From NCBI GenBank assembly GCA_027022365.1, contig JALVYU010000031.1, forward strand, positions 124,001 through 188,000: 64,000 nucleotides of DNA. Reading direction: 5' to 3'. The notes below the pieces were generated by a model, which did no database searches, was not told where the DNA came from, and was given only the letters and a program-made list of their open reading frames with translations. Of this stretch, positions 38,229 to 58,958 are shown piece after piece (positions within the stretch are counted from its first letter, which is position 1; every line of letters starts with the position of its first letter). The DNA is from Desulfurococcales archaeon. GTDB taxonomy: Archaea; Thermoproteota; Thermoprotei_A; Sulfolobales; Desulfurococcaceae. The translations under genes and the position numbers were made by a program.

Positions 38229-39736
38229 TTATCTCCTCCCATACAGTTCTGCTAGTTCACCAAGCTCATGAAACTTAGGGCTTTCGAGCTCGGGTAACAA
38301 TATTCTCCACTCCCAGTTCCCCTTGATTGTTCCTGGCTTGTTCATACGAGCCTCCGAACCTAGACCTAGAACGTCTTGGGCAGGTATTATTGCGAGCCTC
38401 GAGACACTCATCAATGCAAGCCTAACAAATATCTGTGATACATTCTGGGAGTTTATCTCGAGACCAGTATATGATGCTAGGCATTCCTTCTGTTTCTCGC
38501 TAGCTTCCTCGATATACCATCCCTTAACCGTGTTTGTATCGTGTGTTGATGTGTATACGATGTAGTTTTCCTCATGATTATGGGGAGGTAGGGATTCCCT
38601 GGATCGCTCCAGGCAAACACCAGCACCTTCATGCCGGGCAATCCATAATTCCTCATTACTTCTCTAACATCTGGTGTTATGACACCGAGATCTTCTGCGA
38701 CGAAGGGAAGTGTTGGGAAGAACTTCGTAAGGGTTTTGAAGAAGTCTTCGTAGGGTACTTCTACCCATTTGCCATTGACGGCTGTTTTTGCGTCACCTGG
38801 TACTTCCCAATATGCTATAAGCCCTCTAAAGTGATCAATCCTTATCAGATCATATAGGTTATTCATTCTCCTAAGCCTTTCGATCCACCACTTGGACCCG
38901 GTACTTCTTAGTTTTTCCCAATCATAAACCGGTGTTCCCCATAACTGGCCGGTAGGGCTAAAATAGTCTGGCGGGACACCACTTACGTACGCTGGCCTCC
39001 CATCGCTTCTGAGCTTAAATATTTCTTGGTTGCTCCATACATCGGCGCTGTCTAAGCTGACATAGATCGGGATATCGCCCAGTATATTAATACCTTTCTT
39101 GTTTGCGTAGTCTTTCAGATGCTTCCACTGCCGCTCAAAGACATATTGTTCGAAATAATAGTATTCGATCAGCGTTCTATGTCTTTCTATCGCCTCGGAT
39201 AGAGCCTCCGTATCGCGTCTCCGGAGCCTGTCTGGCCATTCATACCATGGTTTTCCCAGAATTTTCTTCAATGACATGAACAAGGCGTAGTCGTCGAGCC
39301 AGTATTTATTCTCTTCGACGAAGTCTTCGTAGCCTGGCAGCTTAGAAAGGCCTTCTTTCACAGCTTCTCTATACGCCATATTCAGGAAGTATTCTTTCTC
39401 TCGGTACGCCTCCTTATAACACACTTTTCTCTTACACTTATCGGCCTTAGAAGTAACTGGGATATCTTTAAGGAGTCTCTCTTCTGCAAGCATGTCAGGG
39501 CTTATCAAGAGAGGATTTCCGGCGAAAGCCGATACACTACTGTAGGGCGAATTAGCTGTTTCAAGGCTAGTAGGGTTCAGTGGGAGTACCTGCCAATAAG
39601 ATGCACCGATCTCTGCTAGGAGATCAATGAACCTGTAAGCCGTCTCTCCAAGATCTCCAACAGAGTATTTCCCGGGAAGACTTGTTACGTGAAGTAGTAT
39701 CCCGAAACCCCTGCCGTAATCACCCTTTAACCCCAA
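38229..39736 (-). pseudogene. malQ: 4-alpha-glucanotransferase (GH77) with a frameshift
   Basis: Amylomaltase-type transferase that rearranges alpha-1,4-glucans in maltodextrin or glycogen metabolism. The first reading frame (39736 to 38477) carries most of the enzyme, including RIDHFRG and AEDLG with the catalytic Asp and Glu. At a run of four C on the minus strand (G-run 38582-38585) the homology leaves that frame. Adding one base restores HNHEENYIVYTSTHDTN, which contains the third catalytic Asp (THDT), and reading continues through LGLGSEARMNKPGT to a stop at 38229. The uncorrected product is catalytically incomplete. It is either a natural disruption or a homopolymer base-call error. TTG 39736 start. 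Confidence 0.82.
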
Positions 39737-39963: not shown

Positions 39964-40602
39964 TTGACGGAGAGGCTACTGCCACCTAGGGAAGCATGCA
40001 AAAGGTTTGGAATAAGCTTCATTACTTTGAAGAGGTGGATTTACTCTGGCAAGATTAGGGCGGTCAGGACACCTACCGGCAGGTGGATGATACCAGAGAG
40101 CGAGATAGAGAGGATTATTAGTGGAAAAGTCGAAGTGGAAGAGGTTAGAGCAGTTATCTATGCTCGTGTGAGTTCTAGCGACCAGAGGGGCGACCTTGAA
40201 AGACAGATACAGTACCTCACACAGTACTGCTTTGCCAAAGGATATAGGGTTGTGGATGTTCTAAGCGACATAGCTAGTGGATTAAAAACCAACCGTAGAG
40301 GCTTAATGAAGCTCTTCAATTATGTGGTTAATAGACGAGTAGATGTTGTAGTTATCACCTACAAGGATAGATTAACTCGCTTCGGCTTCGAATATCTTGA
40401 GTACTTCTTCAAACAGTTTGGTGTAAAGATAGAAGCTGTTTATGGTGAAGAGCCGAGGGACGCTTACCAAGAGTTGGTTGAAGACCTATTAGCGATAGTA
40501 ACATCGTTTGCTGGTAAACTTTATGGCATGAGGAGTCATAAGAAGAAACGCTTGGTTCAGGGTTTCAAGAGTCTCCTAGAAGAGGTAGAGAAGAATGGCT
40601 AG
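39964..40602 (+). CDS. tnpA: IS607-family serine recombinase (TnpA) with MerR-like N-terminal HTH
   Basis: A 212-residue recombinase that catalyses transposition. The N-terminal ~60 residues form a MerR-type helix-turn-helix (PREACKRFGISFITLKRW), and the catalytic domain begins with YARVSSSDQ, containing the nucleophilic serine, followed by a RQIQYLTQYC helix and the KDRLTRFGFE segment. This N-HTH/C-catalytic order is characteristic of IS607 rather than other serine recombinases. TTG 39964 is the start. It overlaps tnpB by eight bases. Confidence 0.88.
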   Translation: MTERLLPPREACKRFGISFITLKRWIYSGKIRAVRTPTGRWMIPESEIERIISGKVEVEEVRAVIYARVSSSDQRGDLERQIQYLTQYCFAKGYRVVDVLSDIASGLKTNRRGLMKLFNYVVNRRVDVVVITYKDRLTRFGFEYLEYFFKQFGVKIEAVYGEEPRDAYQELVEDLLAIVTSFAGKLYGMRSHKKKRLVQGFKSLLEEVEKNG

Positions 40603-41896
40603 AGTAACTAGGACTGTCATAGTGGGGAGTACTAAGCTTCCTAGGAAAGTGTTCAGACTCCTCGTTGAGCTTGAGGGTATGTACCGCAACATAGTCGAGC
40701 AACTAGTAATGTATGCTATCAGGAATAGTGTTAAGAGTTTTATTAGGCTCAAGGCATTGAAGTACCATGAGATAAGAAACCTCTATCCACAACTACCTTC
40801 ACATTACATTTATACTGCATGTCAGGACGCTAGTACTAGGGCTAAAAGCTTTCTAAGGCTAAAGAAACTGGGCATAGCTAAGAGGGAGTACCCAGAGGTT
40901 AAGAAGGTTAGTATATGGCTTGACGACCACCTATGGAAGCCTGTTGGGTATACATTCGTTAGAATAGCTACTCACAAGGGATGGGTAACAATAGAGCTCG
41001 AGCCTCATAAACAGTATTGGAGATACATCAATAGAGGTTGGGAACTAGCTTCTGAGACCAAAATCAAGCTTGATAAGAGGAATAGACAACTCATAATTTA
41101 CTTAACCTTCGTTAAAGAGGTTGAAGAGTACAGCTCTAGGGGATACCTATCAGTTGATGTTAATGAAAATAACGTTACTATACTAGTCGACGGTGTGGCT
41201 TACTTATTCGAGACCAATATTGGGAGGCTTGTCCTAGGCTACTACTATCGTAGGAAGAGAGTACAGGAAAAATATGATAGACCCTATGGTAGGAAGTCAA
41301 GGATTAAAAAGAAGATTATGAGAAGGCTTAAGGAGAGGAGGAAGAAGATGGATATTAGGTGGAAGCTCGCTAGCATCATAGTTAGAGTTGCCTATGATAA
41401 GCGGTATGCTATTGTTCTTGAGAAACTGGGTAAGAGAGTAGCAAATAACATGATTGCTAGGATTAAGAATAAACAGCTACGTCACAGAATATTCCAAGCA
41501 TCCTTCAAAGGAATTCAGAGGGCGATAGAAGGGAAAGCTAGAGAGTATGGTGTACCAGTAATCTATGTGAACCCGAAGAACACCTCAAAACTATGCCCAG
41601 TACACAATGCACTAATAATCTATAATAATGGTTCTAGAATTGGGAGATGTAGTATTGGTGAAGAACTATGGCATCGCGACGTAGTTGCTTGTTGGAACCT
41701 CCTCCTTAAAGCCCTGCGGGGTGATGGGAGCAGTGCCCCAAGCCCCGTAGGGCTTATCCCCGTAGATGTGAGGCTAGTTCCGTTAGCCTCGAATGCCACC
41801 CATGACCCCACAACCCTGCCAAAAGGGTTATGGGCGAGGCGGAAGCCCCTACCGCTGATACAGAACGCTACAATCATAAACAAAATGAAGCGGTAG
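40595..41896 (+). CDS. tnpB: TnpB RNA-guided nuclease-family protein of the IS element
   Basis: A 433-residue TnpB with a RuvC-like nuclease fold. The three acidic residues appear in SVDVNEN (first Asp), VLEKLG (Glu) and WHRDVVACWN (last Asp). The zinc-ribbon segment is incomplete: CPVH then CSIG, lacking the usual four cysteines, which seems common in crenarchaeal relatives. TnpB proteins of other elements use an RNA from the element's right end to cut DNA; activity here is not shown. Its C-terminal codons overlap a 12-bp inverted repeat. Confidence 0.85.
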   Translation: MARVTRTVIVGSTKLPRKVFRLLVELEGMYRNIVEQLVMYAIRNSVKSFIRLKALKYHEIRNLYPQLPSHYIYTACQDASTRAKSFLRLKKLGIAKREYPEVKKVSIWLDDHLWKPVGYTFVRIATHKGWVTIELEPHKQYWRYINRGWELASETKIKLDKRNRQLIIYLTFVKEVEEYSSRGYLSVDVNENNVTILVDGVAYLFETNIGRLVLGYYYRRKRVQEKYDRPYGRKSRIKKKIMRRLKERRKKMDIRWKLASIIVRVAYDKRYAIVLEKLGKRVANNMIARIKNKQLRHRIFQASFKGIQRAIEGKAREYGVPVIYVNPKNTSKLCPVHNALIIYNNGSRIGRCSIGEELWHRDVVACWNLLLKALRGDGSSAPSPVGLIPVDVRLVPLASNATHDPTTLPKGLWARRKPLPLIQNATIINKMKR

Positions 41897-41900
41897 GGGC
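41845..41900. repeat. 12-bp perfect inverted repeat at the IS right end (possible guide-RNA hairpin)
   Basis: GCCCCTACCGCT (41845-41856) and AGCGGTAGGGGC (41889-41900) are perfectly complementary with a 32-base loop and include the tnpB stop. This is the position from which TnpB guide (omega) RNAs are normally processed. The host sequence beginning at 41901 would be the guide. Confidence 0.6.
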
Positions 41901-41901
41901 A

Positions 41902-42301
41902 AACGGTCTTTGATCAGTGTAGCGATAACAACGAGGTATTCTTCGTGGATAATGGGAGACTGGTACCTGACACACTTTGCGATGAAATAGCCTTAGCGAT
42001 TGATCTAGGTAGACATGGGCTTGTAGTAACAGGTTGTGCTCACCCTGGAATCGATAGAATAGTCGAGAAGGCTTCAACGATCATAGGTAAAAGGATCAAG
42101 TATGTGCTTGGAGGCCTCCATATGGTGGGCCTGGAAGAAAGTAGGGTTAGAGAGATCGCCGAGAAGCTCATGAGCCACGGCGTAGAAAGGGTTTACCCCG
42201 GACATTGCACTGGCCTTGAGGCAGAGTATATTCTCGAGAAAATCTATGGTGAGAACTGCCGGGTACTTAGGGCTGGATTGAAGATAGAATTCCATAGCTA
42301 G
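41902..42301 (+). pseudogene. C-terminal fragment of the split metallo-beta-lactamase-fold gene
   Basis: From 41902 one frame reads TVFDQCSDNNEVFFVDNG and continues through VVTGCAHPGIDRIVEKA, GGLHMVGLE and YPGHCTG to a stop at 42301, matching the C-terminal half of the same COG1237-like metallo-hydrolase whose N-terminus lies at 39827. If simply rejoined, the two pieces would be out of frame and lack a middle domain. An ATG at 41945 could produce a shortened protein lacking the main metal-binding motif. Confidence 0.6.
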
Positions 42302-42327: not shown

Positions 42328-43110
42328 CTAAATAATGGGCACCAGGATATATCTGTTATTATATTTAATGATATCGAAATCTACTCCGTAGACCTGGCTC
42401 AACCTTTCTGGGTTGAGGGCTTCGCGGGGACTACCATATGTTTCGACTCTGCCCTTATTCAGTAATAATATCTTGTCGCAGTAAAGGGAAGCCATTAGTG
42501 GATCATGGAGGGTGACCATCGCACCAAGTATTCTTTCTTCCTCTACTAATTTTCTAATAAGGCTCATTGTTTTCACTGCATTAGATATATCTAGATGAGA
42601 TACCGGTTCATCCATTAATAATATCCTTGCCTCCTGGACGAGGGTTCTAGCGATCAGTACGAGCTGGAACTGGCCCCCACTGATCTCGGTTATGGCTTTA
42701 TCGGCGAGACTGCCTAGGCCTAAATCGTCGAGTACACGATATGCTTTGTCATAGTCTTTTCTCGAAGGCAAGGAGAACATCCCGTGGTGCGGGGCTCTGC
42801 CCATGAGGACGTAATCTATTACCTTATAGGGGAACACGATGTGGTGTTCCTGGGGAACGTAGCCGATGATCTTTGCGAGCCTCTTCGGGGGAATAGATGA
42901 TATATCCGTTCCCAGTACCTTGACCGTGCCTGTACCTCTAAGTATTCCTAGAAGTATCTTTAGCAGGGTTGTCTTGCCAGCCCCATTAGGGCCGAGGACG
43001 CCGAGTATCTCCCCCTTGTGTAGCTCGAAGGATACATTATCGAGGACTTTCTCGCCACCATTATATGAGAAGCTTAGGCCCTCTACCTCGATAATGGGAT
43101 TTACCTCCAT
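42328..43110 (-). CDS. btuD: FecCD-type ABC transporter ATPase (BtuD-like)
   Basis: A 260-residue ATPase of the importers for siderophores, vitamin B12, heme or metals. Walker A GPNGAGKTT, signature SGGQFQLVLIA and Walker B ILLMDEPVSHLD are clear. It follows the permease gene with a ten-base overlap. Substrate class is inferred from the neighbouring binding protein and permease. Confidence 0.9.
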   Translation of the reverse strand: MEVNPIIEVEGLSFSYNGGEKVLDNVSFELHKGEILGVLGPNGAGKTTLLKILLGILRGTGTVKVLGTDISSIPPKRLAKIIGYVPQEHHIVFPYKVIDYVLMGRAPHHGMFSLPSRKDYDKAYRVLDDLGLGSLADKAITEISGGQFQLVLIARTLVQEARILLMDEPVSHLDISNAVKTMSLIRKLVEEERILGAMVTLHDPLMASLYCDKILLLNKGRVETYGSPREALNPERLSQVYGVDFDIIKYNNRYILVPII

Positions 43111-44102
43111 GCTTTCCCAGCCCTCCTTAGCAGTATTATAAGTATGGGGGCACCCATGATCGTCGTCAATATACCTAAAGGGATAATCTGGCTCGTCATA
43201 GCTCTCGAGAGATCATCTGCTAGGACGAGGTATGTCCCTCCCAGGAAGAAGCTATAAGTGATGACCTGCCTTGAATCACTTCCTACCATGAGCCGTACAA
43301 TATGTGGTACCAATAGGCCGACCCAACCAATGATCCCTGCATAGGAGACGGCTGAGGCGGTGATTAATGCAGCTACACTAGCAAAGAATAATCTTTCGAG
43401 TACCGGGTTAGCACCAAGTGATCTCGCCTCATCGTCGCCGAGCGATAATATGTTTAGCCTCCACCTAGCCATTACGAGGACGATGCTACACGGGATAATG
43501 ATAAGCGTCATCCTGATTATATCCGGCCATTGGCCCGCCTGACCCACATCACCCATGAGCCAGAACACGATGGCTGCCACTTTATCCGGGGTTGGCGCGA
43601 AGTACTCCGCCAGGGAGAGCCCTGCAGAGAATAGTGCGTTCACAACTACTCCCGAGAGGACGAGCGATATTATTGATCCTCTGCCCCACCCCCACGCGAT
43701 CGCCACCACGATCAGATATGCTACTATAGCAGTAATCATCGCGACTAGCTCTACAGGGATGAATAAGGGCAGAAAAGCTAGGGCGATGGCTGCTCCAAGC
43801 GCCGCACCACTGGTTATACCTAGAATATAGGGGCTAACGAGCGGATTCCGCATCATGCATTGAAGGCTCGCGCCAGAAATGCTTAAGGCTATACCTATAA
43901 GCGCCGCCGCTAGCACCCGCGGTAATCTATAGTAGAGGACTATCCTGGCGGCCGCAGAGCCTAGTTGTGGGTTGAGGGTAAGAGCATTGAATAGTATTTG
44001 GAGAACCTTGGCTGGGGGGATTGGATACGGGCCTATGAAGAGCGATAATACTATGGCTGCGGGTAGGGAAAAAACGATCAGAATCTTATAGATGTTTTCC
44101 AT
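43101..44102 (-). CDS. btuC: FecCD-type ABC transporter permease (BtuC-like)
   Basis: A 333-residue membrane protein of the FecCD family with about nine or ten hydrophobic helices. Diagnostic phrases are RLPRVLAAALIG near residues 55-66, GASLQCMMRNPLVSPYILG following it, and LVPHIVRLMVG near the C-terminal third. It forms the channel of the importer with the downstream ATPase and upstream binding protein. Confidence 0.92.
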   Translation of the reverse strand: MENIYKILIVFSLPAAIVLSLFIGPYPIPPAKVLQILFNALTLNPQLGSAAARIVLYYRLPRVLAAALIGIALSISGASLQCMMRNPLVSPYILGITSGAALGAAIALAFLPLFIPVELVAMITAIVAYLIVVAIAWGWGRGSIISLVLSGVVVNALFSAGLSLAEYFAPTPDKVAAIVFWLMGDVGQAGQWPDIIRMTLIIIPCSIVLVMARWRLNILSLGDDEARSLGANPVLERLFFASVAALITASAVSYAGIIGWVGLLVPHIVRLMVGSDSRQVITYSFFLGGTYLVLADDLSRAMTSQIIPLGILTTIMGAPILIILLRRAGKAWR

Positions 44103-44106
44103 TGCG

Positions 44107-46206
44107 TCATCCCGTCGTAGCGGTTACGCTAGTGTAAGGGACACCGTACCATTCCTGATAATAACTGTTCGCTATCTCTGTAAAGTTAGTATTCGACCAA
44201 AGGCTCGGATAGAGCTTGATTGAGAGCCACAGTATAAATATTGATGCGCTGACACCCCAGTGCTCATAGTACGGCTCCTTGTATACTCTGCCATTCTTTA
44301 CCGCGTCAATACTCTTCAACGCCGGATTGTCTAGGATGTCTTTGGGGTCGTATCTGGCGTAATACCATATTATTATGACCTGGGGATTCCAGCCAATGAT
44401 CTTCTCTAGATCTACCGATACATAGTCTTTATTAGGGTAGTCCTTAGCGGCAACGTTTATCCCGCCAGCCAGGACTATGAAATCATTAACTGTTCCGCGG
44501 CCTCCCTGCACCATTGTTTCTTTGCTCCACAGATAAAGCACTCTAACCCTCTTATCACTAGGTATATCTGAAACTCTCGACTCCACCAATGCGATGATCT
44601 TGTCCATATCGTTTACTAATTGATAAGCCCTGCTCCTCTCATTGAATACTACTCCGAAGAGCCATATAAGCCTCTTAATATCGTTGAAACTATAGCACTG
44701 GACCTTGATAACCGGTATACCCTGGGCCTCTATTTCTTTCACAACTTTTTCGTTGTATGGCCACGTTATTACCACTTGTGGCTTGAGGGCCAGTAAGTCC
44801 TCTACATTGACCGAGAAGCTGCTTCCAGGTGATGGTGTCTTGGTTATGTTCGGGTATGCCTTCAGCATTAGGGGATTATATTTAGCGTATTTGGAGATAC
44901 CGACTACTTTGTCCATTGCGTGCAGGGCGAGAACTAGGGTATACGATATAAAGTCGACGGCCCTGGTGATCTTTGGCGGGAGCTCCACAGTTTCCCCTGT
45001 CATGTCCACTATTTTCATCCATTTAATGCTGTAGGAGGCGAATGCCTGCGCGGGTATGAATTCATGGTAGAAATGGGTGAACAGGTATTCTGCATCGTCT
45101 CTCCAGCTAATATCTTTAAATACGTCGGGATATAGTAGGGAGGCGATGTACTCTATACCAATTATACTTCTCGGCCCCCAGTCGAGAACTCCCCCTATTT
45201 CAGACCAGCATGGAACAATGTAGATACGGCCGCTTTTATAGGCGCTAAGGGCCTGCCATTTAGGATCACTCCTTATCTTCTCGATCACACTATTTATCGA
45301 GGATACAGATGATGTGACAAGTATGACGTCGGGGTTCCACGATGCCAGCGTCTCGAAGTCTATCTTAGGCCATTTCTCGTTCGGGAAATTCTTGAGCGCC
45401 AGGTTCACAGCACCGGCCTCTTCCACTGCGTGGCCCCAACTTGTGTTGGAGTAGAGGAGTATACTTCCTTTTATTAATGAGTATCCGTCGAGCAATACCG
45501 CCGATACCTTGTCCTTAACGCTACTGGCGAGGCTCTTGATTTTGTGATAGTGGGATGACAGGTATTCTGATAGCTCGTTTGCCTGGCTAGTATGTCCAGT
45601 TATTTCGCCGAGTATCTTGATCGCTTTTAGCTCGTCGTCGAAGCCATGCATGAATAAGCCAACAACTTTTATCCCCATCTGCTCTATCTTAGAAGCTATT
45701 TCCCCGGCTTTACCGTAGCCTACGTCCATGATTACAACGTCGGGCTTTAGAGCAGCGATCTCTTCTATGTTGACCCCGGTGAAAACACTTCCTATGGATG
45801 GTTTACTCCTAATATTCTCTGGAAGGTATTGGTCGTACTTGACGTACTTTCCTATCCCGACAATAAGGTTCCCAGCTCCTATTGCGAGGAGTGTTTCAGC
45901 CCAGTATGATTCTAGGACTACTATTCTTTCGACGGGCTTGTTGAAAACGATCTTTTTGCCCCTGAAATCCGTGACTATTATCGGTTTTATTTTTGATGTT
46001 TTGGTGGTTGTAGTGATGGTGTGTGGGGCTGTTGTGGTCGTTGTTGATGTGCTTGTCTGTCTCACAGTATTTATTGATGTTTGGGGAGCTGTTTTTGCGG
46101 GCTTGTTTATATACGTGTAGTATAGTGTTATACTGCTTCCTATACCGACTATTATTATTAGTATTATAAGCGCTGCAGCGGCCTTGGTGATCCCCTTGTA
46201 TTTCAA
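44107..46206 (-). CDS. Tandem-domain periplasmic binding protein of a BtuF/FecB-type importer
   Basis: A 699-residue extracellular protein. The start is TTG 46206, preceded by GAGGTG; the frame extends back to 46332 but that part is not a secretion signal. Residues about 8-34 are a hydrophobic anchor, then a Thr-rich linker to about 72. Two full FecB/BtuF-type domains follow: about 75-390 (FRGKKIVFNKPVERIVVL, GSVFTGVNIEEIAALKPDVV) and about 395-690 (TGETVELPPKITRAVDF, GSSFSVNVEDLLALKPQVV). Such duplication in one chain is unusual. It is first gene of the btuFCD-like operon and divergent from cobN. Confidence 0.88.
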   Translation of the reverse strand: MKYKGITKAAAALIILIIIVGIGSSITLYYTYINKPAKTAPQTSINTVRQTSTSTTTTTAPHTITTTTKTSKIKPIIVTDFRGKKIVFNKPVERIVVLESYWAETLLAIGAGNLIVGIGKYVKYDQYLPENIRSKPSIGSVFTGVNIEEIAALKPDVVIMDVGYGKAGEIASKIEQMGIKVVGLFMHGFDDELKAIKILGEITGHTSQANELSEYLSSHYHKIKSLASSVKDKVSAVLLDGYSLIKGSILLYSNTSWGHAVEEAGAVNLALKNFPNEKWPKIDFETLASWNPDVILVTSSVSSINSVIEKIRSDPKWQALSAYKSGRIYIVPCWSEIGGVLDWGPRSIIGIEYIASLLYPDVFKDISWRDDAEYLFTHFYHEFIPAQAFASYSIKWMKIVDMTGETVELPPKITRAVDFISYTLVLALHAMDKVVGISKYAKYNPLMLKAYPNITKTPSPGSSFSVNVEDLLALKPQVVITWPYNEKVVKEIEAQGIPVIKVQCYSFNDIKRLIWLFGVVFNERSRAYQLVNDMDKIIALVESRVSDIPSDKRVRVLYLWSKETMVQGGRGTVNDFIVLAGGINVAAKDYPNKDYVSVDLEKIIGWNPQVIIIWYYARYDPKDILDNPALKSIDAVKNGRVYKEPYYEHWGVSASIFILWLSIKLYPSLWSNTNFTEIANSYYQEWYGVPYTSVTATTG

Positions 46207-46312
46207 GGTAGTGCACCTCGCATACTGAGGGGGTACATCTCTTTTAGAAATAAATACCCTGGCTCGGGGATATAAAATTGGTGCAGTACATCTCGATAAA
46301 TGGTGCACTAAA
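46207..46312. promoter_or_regulatory. Divergent promoter region with shared leader motifs (binding protein / cobN)
   Basis: A 106-base spacer. TAGTGCACC (46209-46217) and GGTGCACTA (46302-46310) form a perfect inverted pair, each placed just before one of the TTG starts and including the ribosome site. GTACATCTC occurs twice (46233-46241, 46286-46294). TATA-like boxes are seen near 46270-46277 for cobN and near 46245-46253 for the importer. This suggests joint control of the two operons. Confidence 0.45.
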
Positions 46313-49300
46313 TTGACGAGGATATCCTTCATAATAGGCTATAGCGCATCAATGGCGGCAATGCTCGCGGAAATAGTACAAAAGCTATCTAGGAGATTCG
46401 GCTTCGAATACAAGATAATAACACCCTATGGTCTGGGGAGAGGAGATAAGGAATTCATAAAAGGATCGGATTTCATACTCATTTATTCCTCGAGGCTTCC
46501 AGACGAGTATGAGGATATTCTGGAGGAGATCAAGGACGAAAAGATGATTGCAGGGCTAGAGGATACACATTCTTATCTTACTAATATCGGAGCTGAGCAC
46601 TATACTCGCCTCGTCAAATACCTAAAGATAGGTGGACGTGAAAACCTAGAGTCGCTGGTCTATTACATACTCAAATTATTAGGCTACAATGTAGATGCTC
46701 CTCAGCCCAAGCCCGTTCCATGGCATGGAGTATATCACCCAGCCCTAGGCGTGTATAGGACAACCCAAGAGTATCTTCAAGCCTATAAGTTCTCTGATAG
46801 GCCCCTAGTAGGTATACTATTCTATAGGAATGACTGGCTCTATGGAAGAACCCGTCTCGTAGACGAGCTCGTCAAAGCAATAGAGGCCGAGGGCCTCGGC
46901 GTTCTCCCTGTTTTCACGTACGGTTTCAAAGACAAATACCTGGGAACACCATCATCCGAGGACACTATAAGGGAGTATTTCATACAGGACAACAAATCGA
47001 TAATAGACGTACTAATCAATCTCACGAGTTTCTTCATACTAGACCATGGCAGGAGCAGGGAGTGGAGCGTTAAAGGCTATGAACTTGCCAGTGGACTGCG
47101 TCTACTAAAGAAAATAAACGCACCAGTGCTCGAATACCTGACCATGTATGATAGGAGCCCCGAGCAGTGGAGGGATGATCCAAAGGGATGCGGGTACATG
47201 ACACTAGTATATAGGATAAGCATGTCCGAAGTCGATGGAGCGATAGAACCAATACCGGTTGCCGCAACCAGGCTGAATGAGTACGGGGGCAAAGACATAG
47301 TGCCTCTGCGAGACCAAATAAGGATTGTTGCTAGAAGGATCAAGAAATGGGTTAGACTAAGACATAAACCACCGAGTGAGAGAAGGATAGCGATCATACT
47401 GATAAATCCGCCGTGCAAGGGCCTGGAAGCGAATGTTGCGGTGGGCTTCGGCCTGGATGTCCCCGAGAGCGTTGTCAAGTTCCTCAAGAAGCTGAAGGAG
47501 GCAGGCTACGATGTCGGTTATGAAATCCCGGAAACGGGAGAGGAACTGATAAAGATGATCATGGAGAAAAAGGCGTTAAGCGAGTTCCGATGGACATCTG
47601 TCGAGGACATAGTCACGAATGGCGGAGCGCTGGACATCCTCCCCCTCATCAAGTACCTCGAATACTATCGAGAACTGCCTGAGAAGGCCAGGAGGGAGAT
47701 AGAATCCTCGTGGGGCGACCCCGTTAGAGTGGTTAGGGAGAAGCCGCCGGGGCTGGCGGGCATGATCCATGACGGCGGCTTCGTGATCCCCGGCCTCAGG
47801 TTCGGCAATGTGGTCATTATACCGCAGCCTAAAAGAGGGTGTGCTGGCCCTAGGTGTGATGGAACAGTATGTAAGATACTTCACGATCCAAATGTCCCGC
47901 CGCCCCATCAATGGCTTGCCGTCTACTGGTGGATAACTAGGGTATTTGACGCGGATATTATGATTCACTTCGGGACGCACGGTTACCTCGAGTTCCTGCC
48001 CGGAAAGAACGCTTGTCTATCGAGTTCTTGTTGGCCACTGATAAGCATCGATGACACGCCCCACCTATACGTCTACGTGGTATCAAACCCTATGGAGGGC
48101 TCGATCGCTAAGCGCCGCGGGATGGCGGCACTAGTAGATCATCTCTATCCGCCCATGGCTGCTGCCGACACAATGAGTGAGCTCGACGACCTTGTCAACC
48201 AGTATCTTAAAGCCAAGAATATGGGGGACGAGACGCGCAGGAAAGAGCTACTGGAGATGATAAAGGAGCTGGCGGTGAAGCACGATATAAAGCTACGAAA
48301 AGGTATGGGTGCGGACGAGATCATAGAGGCTGTGCACAAGAAGCTCCACATAATAGGAGAAACAGACATAAATCTCGGACTACACGTCCTAGGCAGGCCG
48401 CCGACCCCTGTATCGAAACTGGCTAAATACGTGGTAACAATAGATACAAGACTCCCCCCAGAACAATCGCTCGTGAAAAATATTTCTCGCATCATAGGAG
48501 TAAAGTACGGGGAACTCGACGATAACCCCATGAAAATCCATGAAAAACTAGGGATACCGTATAGAGAACTGAAAAAGAAGATCAGGAAGGCCGCCGAAAA
48601 AATACTGGAGAAAACCCTTGAGTCGAAGGAACAAGCAGATCATCTACGGATACTCGAGGAAATTATTATGGAGTATTTTCCAGGAGCAAGGATTAGATCC
48701 TTAAATGACTGTATATATGCCCTTAAAAACGCTCTACGAATAGCTGAGCTGCTAACGGATACGGACAAAGAGATGGCCTCCCTTCTAGACGGAGTAGCAG
48801 GAGGATACATTGAACCAGGCCCTTCCGGCAACCTATACAGGGGTAAGATCAACGTACTCCCAACTGGGAGGAACTTCTACCTCCTAGACCCACGGACACT
48901 CCCAACAAGAGCAGCCTGGATGATAGGCACAAAGTCAGCTGATCTTCTCATTAAGTACTATGTTGAGAAGCATGGGAGAATGCCTGAGACCATAGGACAA
49001 GTACTATGGAGTATTGACGCCTTTAAGGCTGATGGGGAGCAGCTGGCCCAGATACTATACCTGCTAGGCGTCGAGCCTGTATGGGATGACGGAGGAAATG
49101 TCGTGGATCTGAAGCCAATACCGCTGGAGGAGCTGGGCAGGCCGAGAATAGATGTCCTGGTGAGAATAAGTGGTATAGTTAGAGATCTCCTACCAAACTA
49201 TATAGAGCTGATCGATAGGGCTGTCTCCATCGTGATCAGTCTGGATGAGCCCCCCGAAATGAACTTTCCGAGGAAACACTATCTCGAAGACGTAGAGAAG

Positions 49301-50173
49301 CTAGTTAGCCTCGGCTACAGTAGGGGAGAGGCCGAAGAGATCGCGAGGCACCGTGTTTACGGTTCACCCCCAGGTAGTTATGGAGCAGGGGTAAATCTGG
49401 CCGTAGAGGCATCCGCGTGGAAGGACAGCGGTGATCTTGCCAAGATATGGGTGCAGTGGAGCGGGTACGCCTATACCCGAAGCAAATACGGTGTCGAGTC
49501 CCACGAGCACCTCGTCCTCAGCCTCAGGCGCGTGGACATGGTTAACAGGAACCATGTAAGCGACGAACACGACATACTGGGCTGTTGCTGTTACTTCTCA
49601 TACCATGGAGGATTCTACAATGCTGCTAAGACGCTGTCGGGCCGTGAGGTAGAAGCTGTGACTATAGACACCCGTAACGTGTACAGTTTAAGGATCAGGG
49701 GGATGGATGAGGAAATAGAGCGTGTGGTCCGGGCCAAACTACTAAATGATCAATGGATAGCTGAGATGAAGAAGCACGGCTACCGTGGTGCAAGCGAGTT
49801 TCAGCGTAAAATACTCCATTTCTATGGATGGGCCTCGGTGTCGGGGCTAGCCGAAGACTGGATGTTCGAGAAAATCGCCGAGAAATATGTTCTGGATGAG
49901 GAAATGAGGGAATGGTTCCTAGAGCACAACAAGTGGGCTCTAGAGGAGATCACTAGGAGGCTAATCGAGGCGGGACTTAGAGGGGTCTGGAAAGCACCTT
50001 CCGAGCTCCTAGATAAATTAAGACAGGTATATTCCGAGATAGAGGGTTATCTCGAAGAGGAACTCGGTGCTGGAGAAGTACAGGGAGGCGCCATAGACGT
50101 GGTGGGCTATGATGAAGTAGAGGAATGGAGGGAGAAGATGGAGAGAATCGATAAAATACTGGAAGAGATATAG
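46313..50173 (+). CDS. cobN: CobN/BchH-type metal chelatase large subunit
   Basis: A 1286-residue large subunit that inserts a metal (cobalt, magnesium or another) into a tetrapyrrole with the AAA+ subunit. Family features are GFGLDVPESVVKFLKKLK (middle), the HFGTHGYLEFLPGK active-site region (about residues 553-566), NPMEGSIAKRR, VRISGIVRDLLPNY and GSPPGSYGAGVN near the C-terminus. The AAA+/VWA partner follows. A CobN role is favoured by overall sequence, but the actual metal and tetrapyrrole are unknown; no cobalamin synthesis genes are seen in the window. Confidence 0.9.
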   Translation: MTRISFIIGYSASMAAMLAEIVQKLSRRFGFEYKIITPYGLGRGDKEFIKGSDFILIYSSRLPDEYEDILEEIKDEKMIAGLEDTHSYLTNIGAEHYTRLVKYLKIGGRENLESLVYYILKLLGYNVDAPQPKPVPWHGVYHPALGVYRTTQEYLQAYKFSDRPLVGILFYRNDWLYGRTRLVDELVKAIEAEGLGVLPVFTYGFKDKYLGTPSSEDTIREYFIQDNKSIIDVLINLTSFFILDHGRSREWSVKGYELASGLRLLKKINAPVLEYLTMYDRSPEQWRDDPKGCGYMTLVYRISMSEVDGAIEPIPVAATRLNEYGGKDIVPLRDQIRIVARRIKKWVRLRHKPPSERRIAIILINPPCKGLEANVAVGFGLDVPESVVKFLKKLKEAGYDVGYEIPETGEELIKMIMEKKALSEFRWTSVEDIVTNGGALDILPLIKYLEYYRELPEKARREIESSWGDPVRVVREKPPGLAGMIHDGGFVIPGLRFGNVVIIPQPKRGCAGPRCDGTVCKILHDPNVPPPHQWLAVYWWITRVFDADIMIHFGTHGYLEFLPGKNACLSSSCWPLISIDDTPHLYVYVVSNPMEGSIAKRRGMAALVDHLYPPMAAADTMSELDDLVNQYLKAKNMGDETRRKELLEMIKELAVKHDIKLRKGMGADEIIEAVHKKLHIIGETDINLGLHVLGRPPTPVSKLAKYVVTIDTRLPPEQSLVKNISRIIGVKYGELDDNPMKIHEKLGIPYRELKKKIRKAAEKILEKTLESKEQADHLRILEEIIMEYFPGARIRSLNDCIYALKNALRIAELLTDTDKEMASLLDGVAGGYIEPGPSGNLYRGKINVLPTGRNFYLLDPRTLPTRAAWMIGTKSADLLIKYYVEKHGRMPETIGQVLWSIDAFKADGEQLAQILYLLGVEPVWDDGGNVVDLKPIPLEELGRPRIDVLVRISGIVRDLLPNYIELIDRAVSIVISLDEPPEMNFPRKHYLEDVEKLVSLGYSRGEAEEIARHRVYGSPPGSYGAGVNLAVEASAWKDSGDLAKIWVQWSGYAYTRSKYGVESHEHLVLSLRRVDMVNRNHVSDEHDILGCCCYFSYHGGFYNAAKTLSGREVEAVTIDTRNVYSLRIRGMDEEIERVVRAKLLNDQWIAEMKKHGYRGASEFQRKILHFYGWASVSGLAEDWMFEKIAEKYVLDEEMREWFLEHNKWALEEITRRLIEAGLRGVWKAPSELLDKLRQVYSEIEGYLEEELGAGEVQGGAIDVVGYDEVEEWREKMERIDKILEEI

Positions 50174-50212
50174 CTTGATTGGTACACAGTCTAATGATAA
50201 TAGGTGCAGATA

Positions 50213-52117
50213 ATGGGTTATTCGACCAGAATAACTGTCTTCCCGTTTACGGCGATAGTGGGGCTAGATGATGCTAAGACAGCACTACTCGCCGTTGCCG
50301 TGAACCCCCTCATAGGAGGCGTACTTCTCAGGGGAGACAAGGGAACAGGTAAGACGACACTGGTAAGATCATTAGCGAACCTACTCCCGGAGATCAAGGT
50401 AGTCGCGGACTGCCCGTTCAACTGTGACCCGGAAAACCCCAGCATGATGTGCGATAATTGTTACAGGCGGTGGAGACGGGGAGAAAAACTACCCGTAACC
50501 ACACGAAAGATGCGCGTAGTCGATCTCCCCTTAAGTGTTACTCCGGACAGATTGATAGGGACGATAGATGTAGAGAAGTTCCTCAGAGAAGGAGTAAAAG
50601 CAGTCAGCCCTGGACTATTGGCCGAGGCAAACAGAAATATACTCTACATAGATGAAGTAAACCTTCTCGACGACTACATAGCTGATCTAATACTAGATGC
50701 CGCGGCATACGGCTGGAACATCATTGAAAGAGAACATGTTTCCTTCAAACACCCCTCAAGATTCATACTAGTTGGGAGTATGAACCCCGAGGAAGGCGAG
50801 CTCAGGCCCCAGCTACTGGACAGGTTCGGCCTAGTGGTAGATGTCAATGCTCCAATGGATCCAGAATTGAGAGCAGAGATAGTTAGGCGTGTCGAGGAAT
50901 ACAGTATCGACCCCATAGCGTTCTACAAAAAATATGAGCCGCTCGAAAACGAACTCCGTGAAAAAATAGCACGAGCACGGAAAATACTGCGCGAAGTAAC
51001 CATAGACGATGAACTACTCAGAGCAGTCGCTGAGAAAATAGCAGAGATGAAGATAAGGACCTGCAGGGCGGAGATAACTGTTGTTAGGACGGCTAAGGCA
51101 CTAGCAGCGCTGGATGGCCGGAGAAAAGTTAGCGAGGACGATATAGAGAAAGCCATGAAACTAGCCCTACCCCATAGGATAAAGCTGAACCCCTTCGAAG
51201 AAGCGGGAAAAAGAGAACGCCCTTTCGAGCAAAAATCTTCCGGGCAGACTAAACCACATAGTCATAACCATCATTACTCCAAGGACTATAATCTGGCTCA
51301 ACAAGGAGGAGGGGGAAATAGTCCAGGTAGCGGGAAAGAGCTGAGGCTAGGCTCGCTAAGACCTAGTACCTCGCTACATATCATTCCTATAAGGAGGGCT
51401 AGTAGCAGAAAATGGATGGATTATGGAAGGAGAAGCAGGAAAACGTTTAGGACTAGAATAGGGGGTTTCGTCGGAGCTCCTATAGGTTATATCTACCCTG
51501 CCCCGAGACCAAGAGACATAGACCTCGTAGGCACTCTCATCGCATCAACGATCATGGGAGATCGTGGTAAGTGTCTCGCCGAGAAAATAAGGCGTTGCCC
51601 CGTACCTGTCCTGACTATGATCTGTCTGGATGCTAGCGGGAGCATGAATTACCGGAAAAGAATAATGATCGCGAAGGCGATCGCATATATGATCACTAGG
51701 AGAAGCTATACGCTAAAAACATGGTTGTCGCTCCTTGCCTTTAGAGGTGAAGGCGTTAAGGAGTATATTCCGCCTACTAGGAACTACAGAAAAATAATGG
51801 ATTTGATCGAGAAGATCCCATCAGGTAGAAAAACACCATTATCCGCGTGCCTATATCGAGTGCTTGAGGAAGTATCTATCTTTCGTAAAAAATACAGGAA
51901 TTCTGAGGCAGAGGTCTTCCTCATCACCGACGGCAAAGCCAACGTCTCAATTACTGGTAAGAATATTAAGAGTGAACTAGTGGGCCTAGCCAGGGAGATT
52001 AGGAGGAGGAGAATAAGACTCTATATTATTGATCCGAGAGGGAGAACAGTAGATCCCGGCATTGACTATATAAAATTGATAGCTTACCATTCGGGTGGAA
52101 AGGTGATCAGGATCTAA
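50213..52117 (+). CDS. Chelatase AAA+/VWA subunit (ChlI-ChlD/BchI-BchD fusion-like)
   Basis: A 634-residue ATPase partner of CobN. Walker A is GDKGTGKTT (about 41-49), a four-cysteine group (C67, C71, C80, C83) may bind zinc or a cluster, and Walker B is ILYIDEVNLL (about 143-152). A His/Gly-rich linker (around 340-375) precedes a C-terminal von Willebrand A domain with the MIDAS motif CLDASGSMN (about 470-478). Thus the I and D functions are in one protein. ATG 50213 follows AGGTGCA. It is 40 bases after cobN. Confidence 0.9.
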   Translation: MGYSTRITVFPFTAIVGLDDAKTALLAVAVNPLIGGVLLRGDKGTGKTTLVRSLANLLPEIKVVADCPFNCDPENPSMMCDNCYRRWRRGEKLPVTTRKMRVVDLPLSVTPDRLIGTIDVEKFLREGVKAVSPGLLAEANRNILYIDEVNLLDDYIADLILDAAAYGWNIIEREHVSFKHPSRFILVGSMNPEEGELRPQLLDRFGLVVDVNAPMDPELRAEIVRRVEEYSIDPIAFYKKYEPLENELREKIARARKILREVTIDDELLRAVAEKIAEMKIRTCRAEITVVRTAKALAALDGRRKVSEDDIEKAMKLALPHRIKLNPFEEAGKRERPFEQKSSGQTKPHSHNHHYSKDYNLAQQGGGGNSPGSGKELRLGSLRPSTSLHIIPIRRASSRKWMDYGRRSRKTFRTRIGGFVGAPIGYIYPAPRPRDIDLVGTLIASTIMGDRGKCLAEKIRRCPVPVLTMICLDASGSMNYRKRIMIAKAIAYMITRRSYTLKTWLSLLAFRGEGVKEYIPPTRNYRKIMDLIEKIPSGRKTPLSACLYRVLEEVSIFRKKYRNSEAEVFLITDGKANVSITGKNIKSELVGLAREIRRRRIRLYIIDPRGRTVDPGIDYIKLIAYHSGGKVIRI

Positions 52118-58709: not shown

Positions 58710-58958
58710 CTCTAACTATACCAATGGTAATAGGTGCACTAGGCTCTTGATATTTTTTCTTATGTTCGGTTTCTGGACAGGCTTTTTATAACATTGTTAT
58801 TAGCGAACATGTTAATTGAAACTCTACAGCACAAGAGCCCGGTGATGTACCGAGAATTAGTTTTATTTAGGGATAATACTCGTTATAAATCGAAATTGTA
58901 TTACCCGTGGAACAAGTATGGGATACCCGTACGTGGGAGTACTTGATGGGTGAATTGA
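58710..58958. promoter_or_regulatory. Divergent promoter region of the membrane regulator and dppBCDF
   Basis: About 250 bases. It holds a GGTGCACTA (58733-58741) matching the motifs at the cobN region, a near-palindromic TACCAATGGTA (58719-58729), and for dppB a TTTTATTTA box (58860-58868) followed by a GGGTGA ribosome site. No RNA gene seen. Confidence 0.4.

Follow-up and report, generated by a model that had tools for sequence, protein, structure and literature searches.

A stretch of 64,000 nucleotides from a thermophilic Desulfurococcales archaeon (contig JALVYU010000031.1, positions 124,001 to 188,000; this whole stretch is referred to as the window) carries at 42328-52117 a minus-strand importer operon which diverges from a plus-strand cobN gene and a fused chlID gene, every gene being intact. 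The module is not one of cobalamin synthesis, and we consider that it may reclaim metal in the cytoplasm by removing it (de-chelation) from a metallo-tetrapyrrole or similar chelate that has been imported, a reading to which we assign a probability of roughly 45%. Its CobN belongs to a branch defined by six cysteines, a ChlID partner and a linked importer, all of which are present here. An earlier note on this DNA had placed CobN and the fused ChlI/ChlD divergently from the importer, which is borne out, all of the genes having been located, and had proposed a chelatase coupled to uptake rather than full synthesis, which agrees with the gene content of the host; it had missed the six putative active-site cysteines, the operators shared by the genes and the corrinoid-dependent enzymes encoded elsewhere in the genome. 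The genes of the cassette are as follows (ABC, ATP-binding cassette; SBP, substrate-binding protein).

42328..43110, minus: importer ABC ATPase (PF00005)
43101..44102, minus: FecCD-type permease (PF01032, 276 bits)
44107..46212, minus: membrane-anchored SBP with two tandem Peripla_BP_2 domains (PF01497, two stretches)
46313..50173, plus: CobN-type large subunit, cysteine type, 1286 amino acids, TTG start (PF02514, 1174 bits)
50213..52117, plus: fused ChlI (AAA+)-ChlD (VWA) (TIGR02442, 575 bits against a cut-off of 779; AAA_lid_2, VWA_2)

The cysteine-type CobN and its host genome

The host genome (1.74 Mb, 99.97% complete) has as its nearest named relatives Desulfurococcales metagenome-assembled genomes (MAGs), the CobN of which is 91-95% identical to that of the window. 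Porphobilinogen deaminase (HemC), CobS and CbiC were not found in this genome, nor were any corrin or siroheme methylases, the single TP_methylase match being a DphB-like protein; control genomes gave the expected matches in these searches. Because the genome is without porphobilinogen deaminase, corrin methyltransferases, CobS and CbiC, the CobN is not regarded as a cobalamin cobaltochelatase. The search for cbi/cob and hem genes which had been suggested as a check thus yielded no complete cobalamin pathway with a chelatase of its own, and the claim that the window holds no gene for cobalamin, heme or chlorophyll synthesis held among the open reading frames (ORFs) scanned with Pfam, namely the neighbours of the cassette and 30 further ORFs, a subset of those in the window. 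Across the order, CobN is present in 26 of 197 genomes. Seven of these, all from one family (f11, which we take to be probably Sulfolobaceae), also have HemC and CbiC, with CbiC 9-12 kb from cobN, and their CobN belongs to cobalamin synthesis; among the remaining 19, CbiC was found in none and HemC in three.

The phylogeny also sets the window protein outside the cobalamin CobN clade of cob operons, as the earlier note had proposed to examine. All 28 cysteine-type rows of a 73-row tree fell into one group with 100% support, the sole other members of which are the f11 CobN proteins. The CobN of bacterial and haloarchaeal cob operons forms a separate clade with the window CobN outside it, and BchH/ChlH forms another, 100%-supported clade in which it is likewise not included. 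Only the cob-cluster CobN of the related family f11 adjoins or falls inside the cysteine branch: the free tree places it within, on a long branch, and a single cysteine-type clade is not rejected (approximately unbiased test, p-AU 0.437); a second origin of the cysteines, or their loss in f11, is possible. The window CobN scores under the NCBIfam cut-offs for cobalamin CobN (NF004646, 1244 against 1468 bits; TIGR02257, 802.5 against 822 bits) and under that of the magnesium chelatase model TIGR02025 (777 against 829 bits).

What distinguishes the branch in alignments is a set of six invariant cysteines (368, 510, 515, 520, 1091 and 1092) common to the window CobN and 23 other proteins, the 31 comparison proteins being cobalamin CobN of cob operons, BchH/ChlH, HmuS-like proteins and f11 CobN.

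47414..47416, plus: Cys368 in the NPPC loop (INPPC); shared by all 24 cysteine-type CobN rows, the residue never being Cys in the 31 others
47840..47872, plus: Cys510, Cys515 and Cys520 in the GCAGPRCDGTVC loop; invariant in the 24, missing from the 31 others
47966..47983, plus: HFGTHG superfamily motif with the catalytic His556 (HmuS His538); conserved in the alignment
49583..49591, plus: Cys1091-1093 in CCCYFSYHGG; 1091 and 1092 invariant in the 24, missing from the 31 others

The loop around Cys510/515/520 follows the pattern QPK-x-GC-x-G-xx-CDG-xx-C, and the third cysteine motif, CC-x-YF-xxHGG across the branch, stands where cobalamin CobN has DSDDY and HmuS has LDHxxE. An AlphaFold2 model of the protein (predicted local distance difference test, pLDDT, 87.5; predicted template modelling score, pTM, 0.89) has as its nearest solved folds in Foldseek the CobN of Mycobacterium tuberculosis (7c6o, TM 0.80), HmuS (9d26, 0.80) and ChlH (0.75-0.77). 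The loops of Cys368 and of Cys510/515/520 follow, in the model, strands of the alpha/beta domain that holds the catalytic histidine, and since these first two loops lie in that domain we infer that all six cysteines would sit at the active-site cleft. Glu560 and Glu595, counted by hand on the alignment, correspond to Glu625 and Glu660 of ChlH, both of which are functionally important. The protein has no clear signal sequence, its one N-terminal hydrophobic stretch perhaps being a buried strand-helix. The catalytic role of the motif histidine is known from HmuS His538, opposite which lies His1209 of the LDHxxE motif in the HmuS structure (PMC12583661).

Other forms of CobN were also encountered. 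In many archaeal cassettes and at least one bacterial cassette (e.g., L084:8434-12414) two genes together encode the protein, the break falling at a common point (around residues 780-797 of the window CobN). A second CobN-like type, which carries DLDHYYEFLGG and NYPPG motifs and is HmuS/BchH-like, was met widely among Thermoproteota, in some cases with no ChlID (e.g., L081:1951-5547, L083:1030-4797, L090:7151-10975 and L144-L151). A third, with a DGDDW motif (L135-L143), is accompanied by ChlID and by genes for a FecBCD importer in two families of the phylum, f14 and f32; it groups near cobalamin CobN and is present in two copies in some genomes.

Importer linkage and the binding protein

Cysteine-type CobN was found in many Thermoproteota, Baldrarchaeum, Methanotrichaceae, Methanoculleus and Methanomassiliicoccales and, among bacteria, in Syntrophaceae, another Deltaproteobacterium, Bacteroidales and Poribacteria. 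The arrangement of the window is shared by three other Desulfurococcales genomes (CobN identity 76-95%) and recurs in distant phyla. By our own count, an importer of the FecBCD or energy-coupling factor (ECF) type stands beside cysteine-type cobN, usually next to chlID, in 24 of the 26 loci long enough to be judged, the exceptions being L016 and L156; in L027 only binding-protein genes are present. The majority of the linked importers are FecBCD, which in G007, G028, G205, G407 and G362 gives way to an ECF importer whose T component is CbiQ-like. Because non-homologous importers sit beside the same enzyme, import is taken to be part of its function. Many cassettes also encode a membrane protein with a Gate domain (nucleoside recognition; FeoB-core-like), and the three Gram-negative cassettes add a TonB receptor which matches the TonB-hemin family best (227, 260 and 215 bits, under the cut-off), the scores against the B12 family being 199, 184 and 168 bits, also under the cut-off. 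The gene order in Bacteroidales, receptor-Gate-CobN-SBP-permease-ATPase, resembles hmuRSTUV. No metal-regulator or metal-enzyme genes were found beside the cassettes, except for rubrerythrin in L091.

A few loci are of note for their layout. In L152 and L163 a single chlID is bordered on one side by a split cysteine-type cobN and on the other by a cobN of non-cysteine type. Both of these cobN have a double-domain binding protein to themselves, and two substrates may here share one motor. In a Methanosarcinales MAG (L027:1-20022) the ORFs around the cysteine-type cobN include no fewer than eight for related binding proteins, mostly in tandem. On a Runella plasmid (L102:2506-10540) an HmuS-like cobN, a TonB receptor and a urease-accessory-like gene are found inside a hydrogenase hyp cluster, a setting that hints at nickel.

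The importer of the window had been described as BtuFCD-like, a label which the evidence does not support. By sequence, its binding protein comes nearest to the CeuE/HI_1472-type class and not to BtuF; the nearest PDB structures, 4ovk, 4ino/4ls3 (nickel/iron-binding SBP) and HI_1472, stand well above the BtuF entries, and against the BtuF model it scores 72.6 bits with a cut-off of 234. The SBP of the Syntrophaceae cassette is also nearest to nickel/iron-chelate and HI_1472-type binding proteins, and those of Baldrarchaeum and Bacteroidales are less clearly of the CeuE/HI_1472-type class. For the ATPase, the top NCBIfam matches are corrinoid/heme ABC ATPases (212 and 201 bits), all under their cut-offs. 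There are only two FecCD importers in the genome, that of the cassette and another, located on contig 26, whose binding protein is of the BtuF/ShuT type and has an SLSPSITE motif; the latter is the natural candidate for cobalamin uptake, and its presence, together with the similarity of the cassette SBP, weakens the case for the cassette importer as a plain BtuFCD.

With regard to corrinoids and metals, the genome holds an operon in which a methionine-synthase-like methyltransferase is encoded together with an MtbC/MtgC-like corrinoid protein and an activator of the RACo/AcsV type; three more B12-binding proteins, of radical-SAM type, are also present. A hydrogenase maturation protease is encoded in the window, and a CbiM/NikM importer was not found in the genome.

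Predicted tandem operators

The importer, cobN and chlID are each preceded, just before the start codon, by two GGTRYACC-like palindromes whose starts are 22 bases apart, a tandem operator which came out of aligning the divergent regions of relatives.

46210..46239, minus: importer operator GATGTACC-N14-GGTGCACT, ending at the start codon; two mismatches to GGTRYACC-N14-GGTRYACC
46249..46257, minus: importer TATA-like box GTATTTATT, by inspection; conserved in L002-L004
46271..46277, plus: cobN TATA-like box TATAAAA, by inspection; invariant in L002-L004
46280..46309, plus: cobN operator GGTGCAGT-N14-GGTGCACT; GGTGCA-N16-GGTGCA exact
50181..50210, plus: chlID operator GGTACACA-N14-GGTGCAGA; same site in L002-L004

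Allowing at most one mismatch, GGTGCA-N16-GGTGCA occurs twice in the window (before cobN and chlID) against 0.11 expected. Within the retrieved loci, which total about 2.2 Mb, the exact GGTGCA pair was found 16 times at the N16 spacing, and none of the other spacings tested gave more than two occurrences; many of the 16 come from retrieved stretches that overlap one another, yet several genera are represented, and all 16 precede a cobN gene. A scan with the consensus and three mismatches allowed gave four window matches against 1.47 expected, which is not significant by count, and the case for the operator therefore rests on its exact spacing, its position before start codons and its recurrence across genera. 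The cobN operator is conserved in the same genus and in G130, from another genus; a similar operator lies before chlID in L091, and G028 and G088 have related pairs at their divergent promoters. In G007 and G056 (another family) the same type also precedes a non-cysteine cobN with the HmuS/BchH-like DLDHYYEFLGG motif. No such operator was found for the second importer, the corrinoid operon or feoB. As the operators are shared, the importer and chelatase are predicted to be under one control, common to two chelatase types and not extending to cobalamin genes. No known archaeal regulator could be matched to the tandem operator. A single inverted repeat in the divergent region proved uninformative, and a lone GGTGCACTA half-site at 58733-58741, which precedes the permease genes of an oligopeptide importer in a divergent gap, may be due to chance.

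The divergent gap itself measures 100 bases between the likely starts (TTG 46212 of the binding protein and TTG 46313 of cobN), against the 106 bases given in the earlier note. The longest ORF of the binding protein reaches 46332 (741 amino acids), its start being placed at TTG 46212 because close relatives retain only that portion; for chlID, within an ORF at 50204-52117, ATG 50213 is the likelier start. Walker A/B motifs and a VWA DASGS motif are seen in ChlID by inspection. A MobA-like nucleotidyltransferase adjoins chlID directly downstream, for which an identity as CobY was rejected as it matches MobA only and no cobalamin family. On the other side, at 39964-42301, lies an IS607-type element (recombinase and TnpB-like protein) flanked by a 4-alpha-glucanotransferase gene (38477-39736) and a 118-amino-acid ORF resembling the end of a metallo-beta-lactamase-fold gene.

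Proposed metal removal and its alternatives

Under the de-chelation reading, the double-domain binding protein, permease and ATPase would bring in a tetrapyrrole that carries a metal, whether heme-like or not, or else some comparable metal chelate, which the cytoplasmic cysteine-type CobN would hold in the chelatase cleft by way of His556 and the conserved glutamates. An ATP-driven ChlID ring would power the cycle, and the thiolates of the three loops (Cys368; Cys510/515/520; Cys1091/1092) would take the metal, or assist by redox, thereby freeing it for the cell. A repressor at the tandem GGTRYACC sites would turn on the importer, cobN and chlID jointly when metal is scarce. The substrate, the metal, the direction of the reaction, the role of the cysteines and the nature of the repressor are all parts of this scheme that we infer.

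The reading is favoured because of the precedent of HmuS, the proven heme de-chelatase of Bacteroidota (PMC12583661; PDB 9d26), and of the CobN-like BtuS proteins of Methanosarcina barkeri, which change with the iron source (PMC10846266), and also because of the heme-type TonB receptors and the operator shared with HmuS-motif genes. HmuS and the window CobN have in common the fold (TM 0.80), the HFGTHG motif and, as far as the Gram-negative cassettes are concerned, an operon with TonB receptor, SBP, FecCD and ABC genes. However, at about 25% identity, the window protein has CCCYFSYHGG for LDHxxEFMGG, the LSLDHxxEFMGG motif being absent, and its cassette is without HmuY or HmuR, having only SBP, permease and ATPase with ChlID added. 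BtuS, proposed as a "third type" for metalloporphyrin salvage by Rodionov et al. (2003; as cited in PMC6460266), is similarly a CobN-like protein outside corrin synthesis and genomically tied to uptake genes, but the characterised BtuS/HmuS proteins are periplasmic or membrane-anchored and have neither the six cysteines nor ChlID. The CobN-CobS/T or CobN-ChlID cobaltochelatases (PDB 7c6o, 9fpc) resemble the window system in fold and in their CobN plus AAA/VWA composition; the latter differs in lacking a corrin pathway and DSDDY, in its clade and in being coupled to an importer. From ChlH/BchH magnesium chelatase, with which it shares fold, HFGTHG and Glu residues, it is set apart by the separate clade of the former, and no chlorophyll genes were found with it. 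BtuCDF has the same family of FecCD-type permease and ATPase, although the window binding protein is double-domain and closer to the CeuE/HI_1472 class, the BtuF/ShuT-like importer lying elsewhere in the genome.

Several points should nevertheless make one cautious about de-chelation. HmuS acts without an AAA+/VWA partner, unlike the window CobN, and such a partner is, to our knowledge, experimentally known for metal insertion only (Mg, Co). One of the cysteine loops has low confidence in the model, the similarity of the binding protein is a weak guide to its ligand, and the host uses corrinoids, making a corrinoid substrate possible for the module.

This last point leads to salvage, in which a metal-free or wrongly metalated tetrapyrrole or corrinoid would be imported and CobN-ChlID would insert or exchange the metal (e.g., cobalt) to give a usable cofactor. 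We consider this unlikely, even though the ChlID motor is known from insertion and retains intact AAA+ and VWA motifs, CobN keeps the catalytic His and Glu positions, and the corrinoid methyltransferase operon and B12-radical-SAM-type proteins are found in a genome that does not make the corrin ring; cobalamin has a candidate FecCD importer of its own, there is no CobS for corrinoid remodelling, the operator is missing from the second importer and corrinoid operon, and the cysteines replace the DSDDY site of cobalamin CobN. The insertion or exchange of metal put forward in the earlier note is one option among several, the comparative evidence leaning to removal. Removal need not be from a tetrapyrrole: the importer could take a small nickel or iron chelate and the cysteine-type complex strip metal from this other ligand, as the SBPs of the window and of Syntrophaceae, nearest to nickel/iron-chelate and HI_1472-type proteins, would suggest, along with the lack of CbiM/NikM in a genome with a hydrogenase maturation protease and the ECF importers with CbiQ-like T components that stand in for FecBCD. 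Since every characterised member of the fold acts on tetrapyrroles, the Gram-negative TonB receptors score best with heme receptors, and the Baldrarchaeum and Bacteroidales SBPs are less clearly of that class, we regard it as distinctly doubtful. An ordinary cobalamin cobaltochelatase beside an unrelated importer is highly improbable; the NCBIfam name CobN was obtained at 1244 bits, yet under the equivalog cut-off of 1468, and the genome has no corrin pathway, the protein lies outside the main cobalamin CobN clade, the importer linkage recurs across phyla and the operators are shared.

The 2025 HmuS paper remarked that many archaeal "CobN" proteins lack an association with cob genes and are of unclear function (PMC12583661). 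To this the present analysis supplies a sequence-defined branch, a recurrent importer partner, a predicted regulon with its operator and a tetrapyrrole-auxotrophic host, whose gene content rules out a biosynthetic role, thus rendering the question of the archaeal "CobN" directly testable. The six-cysteine, importer-linked, ChlID-partnered branch and the operator appear undescribed in the openly searchable literature, subscription papers lying outside the search. Tentatively, and with the odds against it, the branch might constitute a fourth functional class within the CobN/ChlH/HmuS superfamily: a cytoplasmic de-chelatase, powered by ATP and supplied by an importer of its own, whose cleft would hold a thiolate site, possibly Fe-S, and by which anaerobic archaea and bacteria would mine metal from foreign tetrapyrroles. 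Were de-chelation to be true, anaerobes would own an ATP-driven route to the metal of heme, F430 or corrinoids; this would bear on how metals cycle in vents and sediments, and also on annotation, as cobaltochelatase is the name that these genes now carry.

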